From NCBI RefSeq assembly GCF_963675165.1, contig NC_087378.1, positions 2,570,525 to 2,634,524 on the forward strand: 64,000 nt of DNA, written 5' to 3'. Shown here one piece after another: positions 12,127 through 22,700 of this stretch. Position numbers and translations under genes: made by a program. This stretch comes from Halichondria panicea (Eukaryota > Porifera > Demospongiae > Suberitida > Halichondriidae). Within the stretch, counting starts at the first letter, position 1. Each line of letters starts with the position of its first letter. Below the pieces are notes generated by a model. The model did no database searches, was not told the origin of the DNA, and was given only the letters and a program-made list of their open reading frames with translations.

Positions 12127-14993
12127 CTACTGTTGAAGTCCTTCAGTAAGATATAGTTTTCCGAAGCTATTTCCTGCAATCTCAGTGACCTGCTGACACC
12201 TTAGCTCCACCTGCTCCCCCGCCAGTAAGGCATCCAGACGAGGGGGAGGGTTCACCGGACGCAGGTTCAGCTCTTGCTCAATGGCCTCCTTTGTTATGGG
12301 AAGAAGAGGCTCATTCTGTTGGGCACGGCGGGCATTCTCCTCTTTCTATGGGTGTGTGCATGGGGGGAACACAAAAAGTGAACAAACGAGAAGCTTAAAC
12401 AAAAAGTAGGAGCCTACAAAATAATGCATGCATGCAGGCCTTTGTCTCTAAACAGGACACTTCTATGCATGCAGTTAAACCTGTATATAACAGACACCAT
12501 TGGGAAACAATTAAGGTTGTGTCATTACACAGAGAGGTGTTCGTAGTTGAGAGGTTGTTCTTCTACATGTATGTTTTGTGAGCCAATTCCTGCTTATATA
12601 TAGCGAACCTTAGGACTGTGCTAAATGCTTCTTCAGGTCTTTCAAGCTTTGAAAAAACTGCAGAGATAAGCTAGAGAAAATGCATATCTCGGCAAAAAAA
12701 AAAGCTGGTCATTATACTCAATAGCAAGGTGGCCGTTCTTCAGGGGTTGTCTATATGGTAGGTACACATGGCTGCAATCTGGACCTTAGCTTAAGCGGGG
12801 TTCCACCGTATACAACATTGTATGCTTTAACTTGCTTCTGCAGTGCTTACTTTAAGTATGAGGTTTCAGGCCACACACCATTATAAGAATCAAGAAAGAG
12901 CTCTCAATCTGTCAAATCTTACTATGTCTGGACCTGGTAAGGATTATCATGTATGTACATGCACAATGACAGTGATATGCCGGTAACATTACATTTAAAA
13001 CACACTCACCCTCTTAGCGAAGGCGGCCAACCTGGACTGTGCTTGTTTGGCAAGAGCCTTTTCATAACCAATCAACCGGTAGTTGTCCTGTTGCAGGGTC
13101 TCCACACTCTCCATTAGTAACTGCATGTTCTTCTTAAGCAGCTGGCTACAAAATAGAAGTAAAATAATTATGTAACCAACACCTGATTTAATACACACAG
13201 GCATGACTAGCTATAGTCACAAAACCACACCAACTTGAAACAATCCAATGATTATGATCATGTAATGCGTTTTATCTAACAAGATACCATAATAGCGGGT
13301 CATTTAGGTGGGGTAAAATATTCGTTATTTTCATGGGCAAGCTGCCCTCCATGAAATTTTAACGTAGGTGTGGCTTACCAGAACGTAGGAATGCAGTACA
13401 GCCACGAGACTACGAAATTTTTACTCACAAAAACCACCGTTTTTCAAGTTGAACTAATTTTTTACCCACGAAAATTACCCGCTATACGGTAGCTCAACAT
13501 GTGCACAACTTTACTACATGCACAACTGAGACAGGGTAATAATTCATAGGCTACTGAATAGGCAGCATAATTATACAACTGTAGTTTACGATTAAAACTC
13601 ATATGTAGCCCTATACCTGGACGATAGTCCGAGGAAGTCCATTTTCTTTGGCTGTGTATCTCTGGTGTCCAGCTCACAGAGGAGGGCGTTCATGAGTCGA
13701 GAGTTTCTTATGGTCACTGGCAGCTCTTTCAACATGTCCTTGTGATCTAGCCCAGCCTTCTGTACACTGAGAAACAAAGAAGTACAATAACATAACAGCT
13801 TATAGTCTCTTGAATTACCAGGAATTAGTATGTTTGCACAAGAAATGAAATTCCTACAGAAAGTAATGAACTGTTTTGATGAGAACATTTCCACTTACCT
13901 CTCGGGGCTGAAGGAGTCCCCTCTGGACACCATTTCCACTATAGTGTCAGTAAGTCTGAACGCCTTCAAGCTGAGCACACCATTGGCCGTCCTTAGAGGG
14001 TCTACACACACAAAATCCTGTCACAAACTATTGAAATGTGCTTGTCTATGCTAGGAGCAGAACTATAACGCTCTAAGATTCATCTTAGCACACGACCAAT
14101 CAAGAAAAGAAGACCTTCTGAAATCCAGCTATATATCAAAAAAGTAGTTAATTAGAGGCACATTCTATTAATAGCATATTGCCAATGGGATGGGACTTAA
14201 GGCGATAAACTTAAGTACCATTCTAGATAAAGAATTCACACCCGGATGGCTCACCATAAATGAGAACAATGGACTCTTCGATAGTCTGTTGGTATCGCAC
14301 GTGGCTCTCCAAGAACTCCTTGTTGATGTGGGAGTTGAGGTACGTGGACTGATACCAGCCGACCTGGTGGTAGTCAACGTTGATGGACCGAAGCTTCTTC
14401 AAAATGTTCACCTGGTACTTGGCTGTGTTTATGTGTGGTGGGAGGTGGGGTGTTAGGGATGCAAGCAAGCCCAGTATGTACAAGATTAGAGATTGGTCTA
14501 CATGATAACACTCACTTGTGCTTAACTGGCATGTTTTGTGTATAATAATACGGAAACCATTACCCCAAACATGACAGTCAACAACCATTCCTACCACCAC
14601 ACCCATACATTCATCTTTGCTACAGGTATAAACCCACAATGCCTTTCCGTGTACTTACTCTCCTCTTCTTGGTCGTCCAATTCCTTGGGCAGGGGGAAAC
14701 AGTTGGTGATCTCGAGAGTGGTCCCTACCACCAAGCCCACCAGGAACCCAGTCACGAGTTCAGAGCTGCTACCCTCTTCCTGACAGTGCTTGATCACCTT
14801 CAATGCAACCTGTGGTGAGCAAGCAGGTCATAGTGTCTCATTCCGGCGGGGTACAGTGCCCGTAATTCCCTCTAAATTGCACAAGTGATGTTTACACTTC
14901 ATAATTATTCCTAACTCTGATTAGAGTTACCAATCCATCAACTTGAACATTCTCAATCTCTTTAATAGCTCCTTTTTTACTGCTACCAGCCAT
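12127..14993 (-). CDS. EIF3H: Eukaryotic translation initiation factor 3 subunit H
   Basis: Minus-strand exons: 14931-14993, 14659-14809, 14255-14422, 13899-14001, 13617-13766, 13010-13145, 12127-12345; 329 aa (human protein 352). N-terminus MAGSSKKGAIKEIENVQVDG leads into an MPN domain with VIKHCQEEG, GFLVGLVVG, LEITNCFPLP, VGWYQSTY and ESIVLIYDP, matching eIF3h almost motif for motif. The metal-binding JAMM histidines of active MPN+ proteases are not present, as is known for eIF3h, so it is structural. The C-terminal half is helical, with the LQQDNYRLIGYEK and PITKEAIEQELNLRPVNPPP blocks typical of the family. It acts in the eIF3 complex on the 40S subunit. The EIF3E subunit gene lies 33 kb away. 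Its start codon is 203 bp from that of the divergent gene at 15197. Confidence 0.96.
13285..13491. repeat. Foldback repeat in EIF3H intron
   Basis: Left end taccataatagcgggt and right end acccgctatacggta are inverted. About 207 bp, inside the intron 13146-13616. Same family as the 11726 copy. Confidence 0.6.
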
Positions 14994-15196
14994 GCCGCGC
15001 CGCTGCTCTCTTGTCTAGTCTTGATCTTCCTGATCCTACACGTACGTACACCACGTGGTTAGATTAATTTAGTGAACTCTAAACCCAATATTTACAGCAA
15101 ACTCAGCACTCGACTCTAACTCAGGAAAAGCTAGACATTATACTTTGCTGACTATGCTATTGTAAATCTGGAGGATTCATAGCTATACAAATCACA
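14994..15196. promoter_or_regulatory. Shared upstream region of divergent EIF3H and Death-patatin genes
   Basis: Only 203 bp separate the two start codons, so a bidirectional promoter is likely. No TATA box in a convincing position was seen. Inference from spacing. Confidence 0.4.
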
Positions 15197-18100
15197 ATGG
15201 CATTCAACAGTGAGTTATCTGCTATAAAGCTGACACAAGAATGATTTGATGGTGTAATAATATAATTATTATAAACCACTGTAGGGGGCAGGCCTGAATT
15301 GAAAGACCTTCTTGACCAACTCGGTGTGGTGACAGAATGGGAGTTACTGGGAAATCACTTGGGCATTAAGAGGCACAAGCTCAACGATATCAAAGTGGAG
15401 CGGCATGGTAAAGCCTCCCTGTGCAAGATGGACATGTTTGACTACTGGCTAAGGAGTGATATATACGCTAGCTGGCAGAAGGTGGTGGAAGCCCTGGAAA
15501 AAATGGATGATTTCGGTCTACTATCTCATACTTTGAGAGTCAGCCATGGACTAGGTAAAACTTTATCTCGATATTCAACATGAATATTGTTTTCTTTTAG
15601 CTCCTGCTGTTCCTGCAGAGCCAATGCAATCTTCTCAAGGCGTGCAGCAAGTGAGGTTTGCATCACATGAGACACATGTACATGTACACGAAATGTTTAC
15701 TTTAGCAATCTGTGGGAAAAAAGCCAAATAACCCGCTATACGATAGTAGTATAGTTATGTCACTTAATTGTCAGTGAGTCACTATACAGTACTAATATAT
15801 TTTGTGACTATCCAGGGCTACTCTGCCAGTGCTGGTCACAGTGCAGGGGTTGCTTCTTTGGCTGGTGTGCAAGAAAAAACAGCTATACAAGATACCAGTG
15901 CTCAGAAATCATCCAATATAGCTTTAATCATCAGCTCTTTAACGCGAGATGATAGCAATGTCGATGCTGTTAATGCAATTGATCCGAGTGACCCTAAACT
16001 TTCTGTACTTCAGCAAGCAATTACAGTGAGTTACTATGAATCCACTGAGATCATTTAGACCATCATGTTTGTTTATACAGCGTCGTGCCCTAAATATGGC
16101 CAAAGTGCTTATTGCTCTGGGTGCTGATGTGAACTATGTCAATAGCAAAAACTTGACAGCTTTTGATATTGCCAGCATGATGAGTGATGAAAATGCTTTA
16201 GAGCTTCTAAAGAGTGTTGGAGGACTTCCGTCTTCCTATGTCTACAAAGACACTAGCACTAAAATGGAATCTGAAGAAGAGATGAGATCACAAAGTAAGT
16301 TGTGTGAGGACAACGTTGTGTTAGAGTCATTACAGGTGCATTCGGAAAGTAACATGACTTCTTGCTTGTGGTTACTTTCCAATGCACATATCTCTCTCTC
16401 TTTTAATTGTGGACTCTTGCTGTTAGTAGTCTGTATTCTCTTGTACTTGTAGATCTAGCCGTGTCCCTAGGCTAATCTAACTGCTTGTTTAATTCTGTCG
16501 TATGTACGCACTGAAAAATGTTGTACAATGACTACTCCCCCTTCCTCCCCTCCACTTTTAGCTCATTCCCTTGTTCTGTGTCTGGACAGCAGTGGGGAGA
16601 AGGCGCTCGTGCAGCTGGAGATACTCAACCAACTTGAGAAACTAACTGGCAAGAAGATCTCTGAACTGTTTGATTATATGGTGGGCAGTGGAATTGGAGG
16701 ACTCTTCCTACTAGCCATGGTGTACGGTAAGCTGCCTAGCGTACTTATTCGGCTGCTTAAATTACATTATTTCTAGCGGCCTGAAACCGAGGCTATAGTT
16801 GGACCTCTATTTAGGACGCAACATTTAAAAAAATTTATAGGTCAGAAAATTGCCTAAGATCGAGAGTGTCGCATATTTGGAGGGCCTTAAGTACATAGTA
16901 TTATGGTAATAGTATTGCAAGATCCAAGCCTCACAGAATTTTTTTCTTTTTGGGGTAAGGAAAGTTGGCTATTTGTATCTAGTCTTTTCTGGTTTATGCT
17001 GATCTGACCCCACAGCTGACAAGACTGTGCGTCAGCTCCAAAGGCTATACTATCAGTACATGCAAAGAATGTTGAATGTAACTGACGCCAAGAAGAGTTG
17101 GAGGGAACTGGAGGACTTTTTTCATGATCTGTTTCGACGTACAAGAATGGACGATAACGTCTCTCCCAAGTGAGTGTTCATGAAAACCTATTACACACTA
17201 AAATAGGTTTACATGTGGTTCTTCCTACAGTGGTCGGCCCAGCCACCACTTAACCACCACTTTTATCAATATAAAATGTAGCAATGTGCCAGAAAGTAGC
17301 CACTACTATAGACAATCGTGGGCAGATTCGTTTAGTCATTCATGGCTGTGTACTTTTGTGTAGGGTTCTCATTGCTGCTGTGAACAGGGAGACCACTAAA
17401 CTCAAGCTAAAATTCTTCAGTAACTTTTCAAAAGAGAAAGATTCATCACGTAAGGAAATAACCATACCCCTGTAAAGTGTGGTTTCCCATGACTGTTTTA
17501 TATATTATGTACACACATACTTATTCGTCTTTTTATATATACACACACAGTTCACGTATACAGAGTAGCATGCTACACCTGTGCCACCCCTGAGTACTAT
17601 GGCGTGATAGGCAATGACACAGACCACTACATTCATGGGGGAGCCATCTGCAGAAACCTCACACCCTCTGCTCTGACCTTCATTTACGAGAATTGTAAAA
17701 AGCCCTCCATTACCGGTGTAGTGTCTGTAGGGGAGGGAATCTGGTCGTCTATGCCTTACACGGAGGACACAGATCTATCAGCATGCGCAGCGGTGAGATA
17801 GTACTTGTAGCTTTTCCTTTGTATTTGGCATGTACATACGATGACAGAGCATGCATGTAATTGAAGCACACTCCTTCTTCCCCGGCAGTACCTACTATTA
17901 GCAGTTTGTATATAATTGGAGCATTCCCAGAACATTTTCTTTCTCTCCCGTAGTACTATACACGTGTTTCTCTGTGTGCTTATTTTACGTACCCACCCAC
18001 ACACATTCTATAGGATGCACTGGTGGAGCAGATCCACCAGAACTGTAAGAGCCGGTTCTCTCCCCCCAACCCTGCCTTCTACTACCGTATCAACCCACTT

Positions 18101-18238
18101 TTTCCAGTTCAGACACCGGTGAAGCTACTACTGGAAGACCTCGTTGATTTGCATGTTAATGCTATTGTCACTCTTGTTGGAGAGGAGAGCTCATCATCTC
18201 TGGAAATTAAAAGTCTGGCATATCAGTTAGCTTCCTAA
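15197..18238 (+). CDS. Death domain + ankyrin-like + inactive patatin-like (iPLA2-type) protein
   Basis: Exons: 15197-15209, 15285-15554, 15601-15650, 15816-16025, 16081-16294, 16562-16726, 17016-17169, 17364-17449, 17551-17792, 18014-18238; 542 aa. Residues 5-95 form a Death-type domain (PELKDLLDQLGVVTEWELLG, MFDYWLRSDIYASWQKVVEAL) of the kind expanded in sponges. Residues about 182-235 resemble one to two ankyrin repeats (AKVLIALGADVNYVNSKN). From about 253 the fold follows PLA2G6: LVLCLDSSGEKALVQLEIL replaces the DGGGxKG oxyanion loop, and VGSGIGG replaces AGTSTGG, so the nucleophile serine is Gly296. YIHGGAICRNLTP replaces LDGGLLANNP, so the catalytic Asp is His416. The rest of the fold is kept (VSVGEG, FYYRINPLF). 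Hydrolysis is therefore unlikely; a lipid-sensing or scaffold role linked to Death-domain signalling is inferred. Confidence 0.85.
15700..15755. repeat. Fragment of the CCGTATAGCGGGTTATTT repeat
   Basis: The stretch caaataacccgctatacgatag is a single end of the foldback family, without a visible partner, in an intron of the Death-patatin gene. Confidence 0.4.
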
Positions 18239-19471: not shown

Positions 19472-19708
19472 TCTAAACCACTAACACTGGCTACAAGCAA
19501 GCAAACAAACTAAAACTAGATGATAGTGATAATTCATGGCTGAGGTTTTGCAGTTTTATGGTCTAGTACCGTATGGGGGGGGAAAACCCCGGGATTCCCC
19601 TGAAGACGCTTTCCCGATTACAGGTGCAGGAGCACTTTGACCTAAGGTCAAAGTTCTATCAGAAAGAAGAATATACAATTAATTACAAAGAGCTAGAGAA
19701 CAAGCAAG
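19472..19708. promoter_or_regulatory. Divergent upstream region of the unknown gene and NRBP
   Basis: The two start codons face away from each other across 237 bp. The sequence contains a short foldback ggggggggaaaaccccggg near 19575. Bidirectional promoter inferred from spacing only. Confidence 0.35.
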
Positions 19709-22700
19709 ATGCCAAGGAGCCCCATAACTAGTACTGCTGACTTGTCAGAGACACCCTCCGTCTCTAAAGACTCTGATAAGGAAGACACTGACGACAGTGA
19801 GGATGAGATCCTAGAAATCAGTGAGAATGGAAGATGGCAGAAAATAGATCAGCATGTGAGTACATCTATGTGTGGTTTCTGAATACATTGGTCCTCTGGT
19901 TGGTTTTGAGGTTTGGCTGGGATACTTACTTGCCACTCATCCAAAACATTCGCAGGTGACCAGAGATGTTCCTGGCATTGATGCGGCTTTTCTGGCCATT
20001 GATACTGACGATGCTGTAGAGTTTGTATGGAATGAAGTGCGCTACTCTAACAGGAAGGTAGTCAAAGAGAGCAAGGTAAGGGCCGGGGTGTGGTATAAAT
20101 TAGTCAGAGCTTCCTAGGTGTGTGTCTCATTCTGTGTCCTTATAATTAAAAAGGCTAGGTGTAATAGTTATGCTATATTATTTTTATGCTTTCCTTAAGT
20201 AAATCCCTCAAGAAAAGAGCTCTTATTAGGGTCATATTAACAGTCTCCATAATTATGTGTCTTACAAATGTTTACCCTCAGGAACGTTTAGTGAAGATAC
20301 TAAAGAGGTTGACCGAAGTCAAGCACAACAATATCGTGAATTTTATTGACTTTTGGCATGACCGTGTCAATAACCAAGACAGAGTGAGTACCGTACACAT
20401 CATGGCACATACCAGCTACACACTCACATATTCATACTGGTGTGCTTTGATACACAATGGATGTCTTGTCTTAATCAGCTTGTTATCATTCTCTATGACA
20501 AACGTTACCACCCACTTCGCGCACATGCACACACACAGCTTGTGTTCATCACCGAGTACATGACGTCTGGCTCTCTCATGCAATTCCTAATGAAGGCCAA
20601 GGGTCAGGGTAGGAAGAAAACTGTCAGTAAAAAGGTGAGCTATAATTATACATGTTAGTCCCTTTATCATCAAAACACATGTACACTCGTGTAGATGTGG
20701 AGAAGATGGTGTCGACAGATCTTGTCAGCTCTAAGGTAAATGTAGTCTCGGAATGTGTGCACAGTATTTGATTTTAAACCGGCAAAGTATTTACAGAGTA
20801 ATAATTGGTAGCAAACTTGTGCACATGTGCAAGTTGTTGACCTACTTGGTGACGTACACACACATTTTCAACTAGTTATCTACACAAGCATGACATCACC
20901 CATGGCAACCTGTCTCTCGCCAGTATCTTCATTCAACACGATGGCCTGGTTAAGATCGGATCAGGTGAGCTAACACTATGATACCGTATAGCAGGTTATT
21001 TTTGTATGGTGTAAATTTTCATATATCTCGTATTGTAGAGCATCGTACGAAAATAAAACTACGCTATATGTTCACGTCACTTCCTGAGCTGTACAAATAT
21101 TTAAAATACATAATTGAGCAGTTCATATGAAAATGTGCACCCAACGAAAATAATGATCCTTACCTGTTATAGCTTTGCTGCACAATCATACACCAAATTT
21201 ACTAACAGGCATTTTTCACTCAGGCCTTTTGAGTGCTCATAAACACTACAACTCATGCAAGTATGTTGCAGTGCATATAATTATTATTACTGTAATTATG
21301 CCTCGGTTGCGCATGCACAGCGAGGTACATGTATATGGTAGTGTGTCTGTGTGTGTTAACCGTTACAGCTGCTCTGTGATAAATGAAGTGCAAGTAAGAG
21401 TTTCTATAGTCTTCTAGTAACGTTTCTTGGATTGCGGATTTGTAAATCGATCTCGAGTTATGGCTAGATTTGCTTATTTTGAAAGACTCTTCAGACTCAT
21501 GTGTAGCAACATCTGTGATATAACTTAGCTATTCTACTTTAGTATTAACTCTACACTAGAACGCTACATGTAGCTGCAAGAGTCAGGAAAGAGCTGCACT
21601 GTTTCATGAGCGTGCAGCCATTAGCAATAATTATGGACTTTGAACTTTCGGCATCATTTTTAGCAATAATCTAGTCTCATGAATCAGCCGCCCTTCTTTT
21701 GGGAAGACCGTCTGAGCACTCTTGTCAATTCAAAATGGAATGTTAATTGCACAAAACCAATGAATGTAATCAAATTCGTGATCTTATGCCCCCACGTATT
21801 TATTAATATAATTTTTTGTACAAATCGTCAAGCGAAGGCATCTCTCTTTATTTGTGTTTTGCCTGTGGTGCTACTGTAACTCTGTGCCTAAGGACGGTGC
21901 TTTCATTAGTCATTAGTCAGTAATGAATACAACCTCTTCAATAGGTGGCAGTTCGTCCCTTATTACACATAATGTTGTACAAATCCTTAGCCTTTCTGGC
22001 ATTACAGGTGAAAGTGTTTACAAATTCATACAGTTAGAGTCTAGAGTCTTTTTCCATTCTTCCCAGTGCATTTTCACCAGTTGATTTGGCTGCTTGACTG
22101 CATGGGTGTTATTTGCCTCTTATTTACAATCAGCTTTTGTGCATATACGGTACTGTGTTACTTACTGTCATCTCCACCCATCCAGTGTCACCAGACGCCA
22201 TACACGAGCATGTTAAGACCAAGAGGGAGGAGATGAGCATGAGACCACACTACACTGCTCCTGAGTATGCAGAGGGACCTGTTGGCACAGCTGCCGATAT
22301 CTATGCTTTTGGAATGTGTGCTTTAGAAGTGAGGCACAGTACTCTGCATGGCTATAGTGTTGCTAGGCAGCAAGTACCTGTTGCTGGTACCTAAAGAGGA
22401 GGATTTGTTATTATTGTTTGTGGTGTAAGGCGTTTGTGAATGTGCTGCTAAGTCAGTCATTGATAGCTAGTAGGTGTGGTCGAGTAATGATGCAAGCAGC
22501 ATCTCTAATGGTGCCTTAAACAAAACGTTGTTGGCATTTTGCCCAACACCTACATTGTACATGTTATCCATACGCAAATATAATTATTTGCACTGATGTT
22601 TAGTCTTGAAAACAAAATTGAAAATCGCATAAGCATGTTTTGCTTCGGGTATAACCGATAATCATTTATCGGACAATTTTCTGGGTGATTTTCGTTGTTT

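Follow-up and report, generated by a model that had tools for sequence, protein, structure and literature searches.

The window, a 64,000-base stretch of DNA (bases 2570525-2634524 of contig C2, in a compact animal genome of 131 Mb and 39 contigs), carries at 15197-18238 (+) a gene located between an eIF3h-like gene and a kinase-like gene (Table 1). The model of this gene, referred to here as the window gene, has ten exons and 1629 coding bases including the stop codon, which encode a product of 542 amino acids with no internal stops. All nine introns have GT-AG borders and are 46 to 289 bases long. The coding frame of the spliced sequence contained no stops compared to 27-38 in the five other frames. 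Its third-position GC of 0.473 was above the 0.379 GC of the gene's own introns and below the third-position GC of five of the six intact paralogues described below.

Splice sites were scored with matrices built from 18 paralogue introns, a few of which, mainly those of L041 and L044, were probably misplaced by the aligner. Ranked against all GT sites in the window, each of the nine donors came out above the 90th percentile; among AG sites, eight of the nine acceptors reached at least the 80th percentile, the last one lying at the 45th. The gene model is backed independently by the patatin peptide of L042, an intact PLA2G6-type paralogue, which was aligned to the window with splicing and with no use of the model. 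This alignment gave introns at 16727-17015 (phase 1), 17170-17363 (phase 2) and 17450-17550 (phase 1), all three in the same alignment columns and phases as the introns of L042 itself. Across bases 1-62700, searched as 38 tile-strand combinations, the peptide scored 367 at the window gene and no more than 117 anywhere else.

Further on, the L042 alignment placed a donor at 17793 and an acceptor at 18013, both in phase 0, and inserted between them an extra exon that is taken as spurious; the phase 0 intron of the paralogues aligns approximately 28 residues beyond the 17793 donor. The shift would fit a segment lost from the window gene and leaves a shared intron unproven. The first two patatin introns were shared exactly with L041 and L045 and the third to within four residues, the first patatin intron was one residue off and in a different phase in L043, and L038 to L040 lack it. 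An earlier sequence-only reading of this DNA had stated that all splice phases were kept. This holds for the three patatin introns; the next intron agrees in phase and is shifted in position, and the ankyrin introns, which the alignments placed inconsistently and which were excluded from the comparison, could not be placed reliably.

Table 1 Exons of the window gene, its second intron and the neighbouring genes (window positions)
Feature	Position	Strand	Description
eIF3h-like gene	13000-15010	-	Upstream neighbour; eIF3h_C 41.2 bits, above the cut-off
Exon 1	15197-15209	+	Start codon and short leader MAFN; 13 bases, phase 1 at end
Exon 2	15285-15554	+	Entire Death domain; 270 bases, phase 1-1; Pfam match residues 9-79, ~15296-15508
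Intron 2	15555-15600	+	46 bases, between the Death-domain exon and the remainder; read-through gives a stop at 15581-15583
Exon 3	15601-15650	+	Linker
Exon 4	15816-16025	+	Linker, then beginning of the ankyrin remnant
Exon 5	16081-16294	+	Ankyrin remnant (Ank_4 residues 177-224, begun in exon 4) and linker toward the patatin domain
Exon 6	16562-16726	+	Patatin domain begins; DSSGEKA oxyanion loop 16585-16605; Gly296 (nucleophile position) 16690-16692
Exon 7	17016-17169	+	Patatin domain
Exon 8	17364-17449	+	Patatin domain
Exon 9	17551-17792	+	Patatin domain; His416, replacing the catalytic Asp, at 17634-17636
Exon 10	18014-18238	+	C-terminal part; phase 0 start as in the matching exon of L040, L041, L042 and L045; stop 18236-18238
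Kinase-like gene	19700-20980	+	Downstream neighbour; PK_Tyr_Ser-Thr 28.9 bits (cut-off 23.1), Pkinase 31.0 bits (just under 31.7)

PLA2G6 ancestry and loss of the catalytic residues

A domain search of the 542 amino acid product bore out the order Death, ankyrin, patatin that had been proposed from the sequence. Pfam Patatin (PF01734) matched at 30.6 bits, above its curated cut-off of 27.7, and Ank_4 at 27.7 bits (cut-off 22.7), while Death (PF00531, cut-off 22.6) scored 21.8 bits in the whole protein and 25.6 bits for exons 1-2 alone. The best solved relative was 6aun, which is PLA2G6/iPLA2beta (E 7.8e-17, residues 109-381 only). The ankyrin part lies N-terminal to the patatin domain and three patatin introns are shared, which places the gene in the PLA2G6 lineage.

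The changes claimed earlier at the active site were confirmed in the model at the same residue positions. The nucleophile serine is replaced by Gly296 within VGSGIGG, where GSGIG stands in place of the GxSxG of PF01734, and the catalytic aspartate is replaced by His416 within YIHGG, in place of DGG or DGA. The oxyanion loop, DGGG in the intact paralogues, reads DSSGEKA (residues 261-267), with Ser262 and Ser263 in place of the two oxyanion glycines. Besides the window gene, eight PLA2G6-type loci were found (L038 to L045, among which L038, L039 and L040 are near-identical copies). All of them retain DGGG, GxSxG and DGG, and the more distant patatin loci L046, L047 and L048 retain GxSxG as GASAG, GTSIG and GTSTG, respectively.

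The gene was also searched for an alternative exon that might carry GxSxG or DGG in intact form, and none was found in a patatin context. DGG and DGA were absent from the three unspliced forward frames of 15197-18238, and the only GxSxG in the frame of any exon was GHSAG in the exon 4 linker (15834-15848, +), outside the patatin domain. The GHSAG stretch is a GxSxG by its letters and probably arose by chance.

Divergence extends well beyond these residues. Six non-redundant intact paralogues, with L038 and L039 omitted, were used to define 55 invariant columns, of which the window gene retains 32 and changes 23. An intact gene that is held out in turn retains 82 to 95% of those columns on which the remaining five agree. 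Mean identity of the window gene to the intact genes was 35.4% compared to 50.9% among the intact genes (means calculated by hand). Its end branch measured 3.45 changes per column, about five times the median of 0.69, in a tree that lacks supported forks, and no sister is named since no branch of the paralogue tree was supported. Relaxed constraint could likewise produce such a branch and the 23 changed columns. Directly behind the former DGG, NNP is missing and the segment is shorter by four residues. The earlier statement that the rest of the fold was kept was therefore too strong, as it describes 32 of the 55 invariant columns and misses the other 23.

The columns responsible for the chemistry (nucleophile, aspartate and two oxyanion glycines) were lost in four of four cases compared to 19 of 51 other invariant columns; the chance of a fourfold loss is 0.026, a hand calculation on columns picked afterwards. 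When all ten invariant columns of the three motifs are taken, the enrichment disappears, with losses in 4 of 10 compared to 19 of 45 elsewhere. Together these counts indicate that the chemistry is gone and the flanking motif residues are retained. Pseudoenzymes are known across many enzyme families. The window gene falls within the definition given in PMC10211241, that of proteins in which the conserved catalytic motifs of an enzyme family are absent, and its product is classed on this sequence criterion as a putative pseudoenzyme of the PLA2G6 family plus an added domain.

The added Death domain

The added domain is 31-37% identical to the Death domains of 12 genes belonging to a tandem family on contig C1. 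When an alignment profile was compared with PDB, the Death domains of RIPK1, PIDD and CRADD ranked first, weakly (E 0.058-0.23). Leader exons of 37-52 bases ending in phase 1 were seen in ten of 14 related Death-domain genes, with one leader ending in phase 0 and three genes having none; this check covered only four donor strings, picked by eye, and the 14 genes included single copies on C8 and C12. Phase 1 at both ends of an exon is a usual sign of exon shuffling. No Death domain was detected with the genome's own Death profile upstream and on the same strand of the intact PLA2G6-type loci (approximately 3.5-7 kb each). Pfam Death matches do adjoin L038, L039 and L040 on the opposite strand (150 of 503 candidates scored).

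The related genes (L024-L037) form a tandem Death-domain family located mostly on contig C1 at approximately 3.91-3.98 Mb, with the single copies on C8 and C12, and one fragment downstream of the Death domain in this family had no Pfam match. At least 148 Pfam Death matches occur in the genome (G000) among the 150 of 503 candidates that were scored, a large repertoire for 131 Mb. On contig C2, at approximately 3.36-3.39 Mb, L039 and L040, both intact iPLA2 copies, have beside them on the opposite strand two loci for long ankyrin-repeat proteins (L051 and L052) together with Death-like exons. In L051, the one of the two that was scanned, ankyrin matches were strong and Roc GTPase matched weakly (19.0 bits against a cut-off of 27). 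The surroundings of L038-L040 look as if neighbouring genes had been duplicated together.

Function, alternatives and likeness to known systems

We favour, with moderate confidence, a protein-coding gene for a pseudo-phospholipase of PLA2G6 type that has acquired a Death domain. The catalytic residues are lost, the frame is open and a Death domain, a type of domain employed by cell-death signalling, has been gained, which suggests that the product is probably a signalling adaptor and not an enzyme. A PLA2G6-type (iPLA2beta, PNPLA9) paralogue would have shed the greater part of its ankyrin array, along with its catalytic residues, and gained the leader exon and the Death-domain exon, probably by exon shuffling. 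The gene is presumed to be expressed and its protein to be incapable of phospholipid hydrolysis. The Death domain could recruit the protein into a Death-fold signalling complex, and the patatin and ankyrin parts may form a module that binds membranes, lipids or partner proteins.

It is also conceivable, if rather unlikely, that the locus is a young or slowly decaying pseudogene whose function was lost too recently for a stop or frameshift to have accumulated. The long branch, the lost invariant columns, a whole-protein Death score just below the cut-off and motif columns lost overall no more often than others would all be expected of such a gene, although its ten exons are all open across 542 codons and the splice sites score as highly as given above. 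A neutral simulation, in which an intact patatin coding sequence was allowed to drift until the extra divergence was reached, remained stop-free over the patatin domain alone in 30 of 600 runs when all of the extra divergence was neutral, in 134 of 600 when half was neutral and in 298 of 600 when a quarter was. The simulation, taken together with the intact splice sites and six further open exons beyond the simulated sequence, favours a maintained gene and leaves it unproven. The view of the sequence-only reading that this is not simple decay accordingly has the open exons and good splice sites on its side and, against it, the 30 open neutral runs and a divergence far above that of the paralogues.

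The fusion is least secure at intron 2, which is only 46 bases long and has the poorest donor of the nine (91st percentile of all GT sites in the window, with its acceptor at the 80th percentile of AG sites) and an in-frame stop on read-through. Two neighbouring genes may have been misjoined, the first encoding a small Death-domain protein that terminates at the 15581-15583 stop and the second an ankyrin-patatin pseudoenzyme that could begin at an in-frame ATG in exon 3. This is improbable given that only 17 bases separate the stop from exon 3, that introns as short as 54 bases are present three times in the intact paralogues, and that the frame continues out of the phase 1-1 exon. It is very improbable that the product is still an enzyme, working through a changed or relocated active site. 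A partial precedent exists in the plant pPLAIII proteins, whose box reads GxGxG and not GxSxG and whose group is described as one of hydrolases (PMC4253999, PMC4204433). In the window protein Ser295 adjoins the lost nucleophile position; however, the window gene has also lost the catalytic aspartate and both oxyanion glycines.

Within the favoured reading of a maintained pseudo-phospholipase, the most speculative step is a pairing with active iPLA2 paralogues, which would either be recruited to a Death-domain complex or be blocked, in the way that FLIP(L) regulates caspase-8. It is a doubtful proposal that such a Death-domain pseudo-iPLA2 binds active iPLA2 paralogues, recruits them or silences them, and in this way connects phospholipid metabolism with a death-fold signalling complex. 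The catalytic domains of iPLA2beta form a tight dimer in which the loop after DGG and the following helix contact the other monomer, as described in PMC5823874. The corresponding dimer-contact stretch of the window gene lacks NNP and is shorter, which weakens the pairing model.

A search of titles and abstract beginnings in the open-licence literature gave no paper about a Death-patatin fusion, and neither 'pseudoenzyme' nor 'death domain' appears in the main text of a patatin-domain review (PMC12871566). As this covers open-licence literature and no animal protein database, it is weak evidence of novelty. Prokaryotic and viral contig collections, scanned for relatives outside this genome, gave 18 and 3 pattern matches, respectively, none of which was confirmed, and such collections say little about animals. 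Should the gene prove to be expressed and maintained, iPLA2-type proteins would be linked to death-fold signalling; one pseudoenzyme with eight intact paralogous loci provides a testable set in a single genome.

The nearest known system is PLA2G6/iPLA2beta (PNPLA9), which has the same ankyrin-then-patatin order; a PLA2G6-type paralogue in the same genome shares the three patatin introns. The window protein differs from it in lacking the serine, the aspartate and the two oxyanion glycines, in an ankyrin part reduced to one or two repeats and in the N-terminal Death domain. The plant pPLAIII patatins share the GxGxG substitution, while the passages on them in PMC4253999 and PMC4204433 contain no reference to Death or ankyrin parts. 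Fungal NLRs with a patatin effector likewise place patatin within an immune-type multidomain protein, but combine it, in the account of PMC4986451, with NB-ARC or NACHT and a presumed active lipase; NB-ARC and NACHT are not among the Pfam matches of the window protein.

The pseudo-caspase FLIP(L) offers a likeness in concept only and has an unrelated enzyme fold. FLIP(L) carries death-fold (DED) domains. PMC7586951 describes how this inactive protein regulates an active paralogue during cell-death signalling. If the pairing proposal is true, the product of the window gene would be the counterpart of FLIP(L) among phospholipases, in an animal that is perhaps early-branching.
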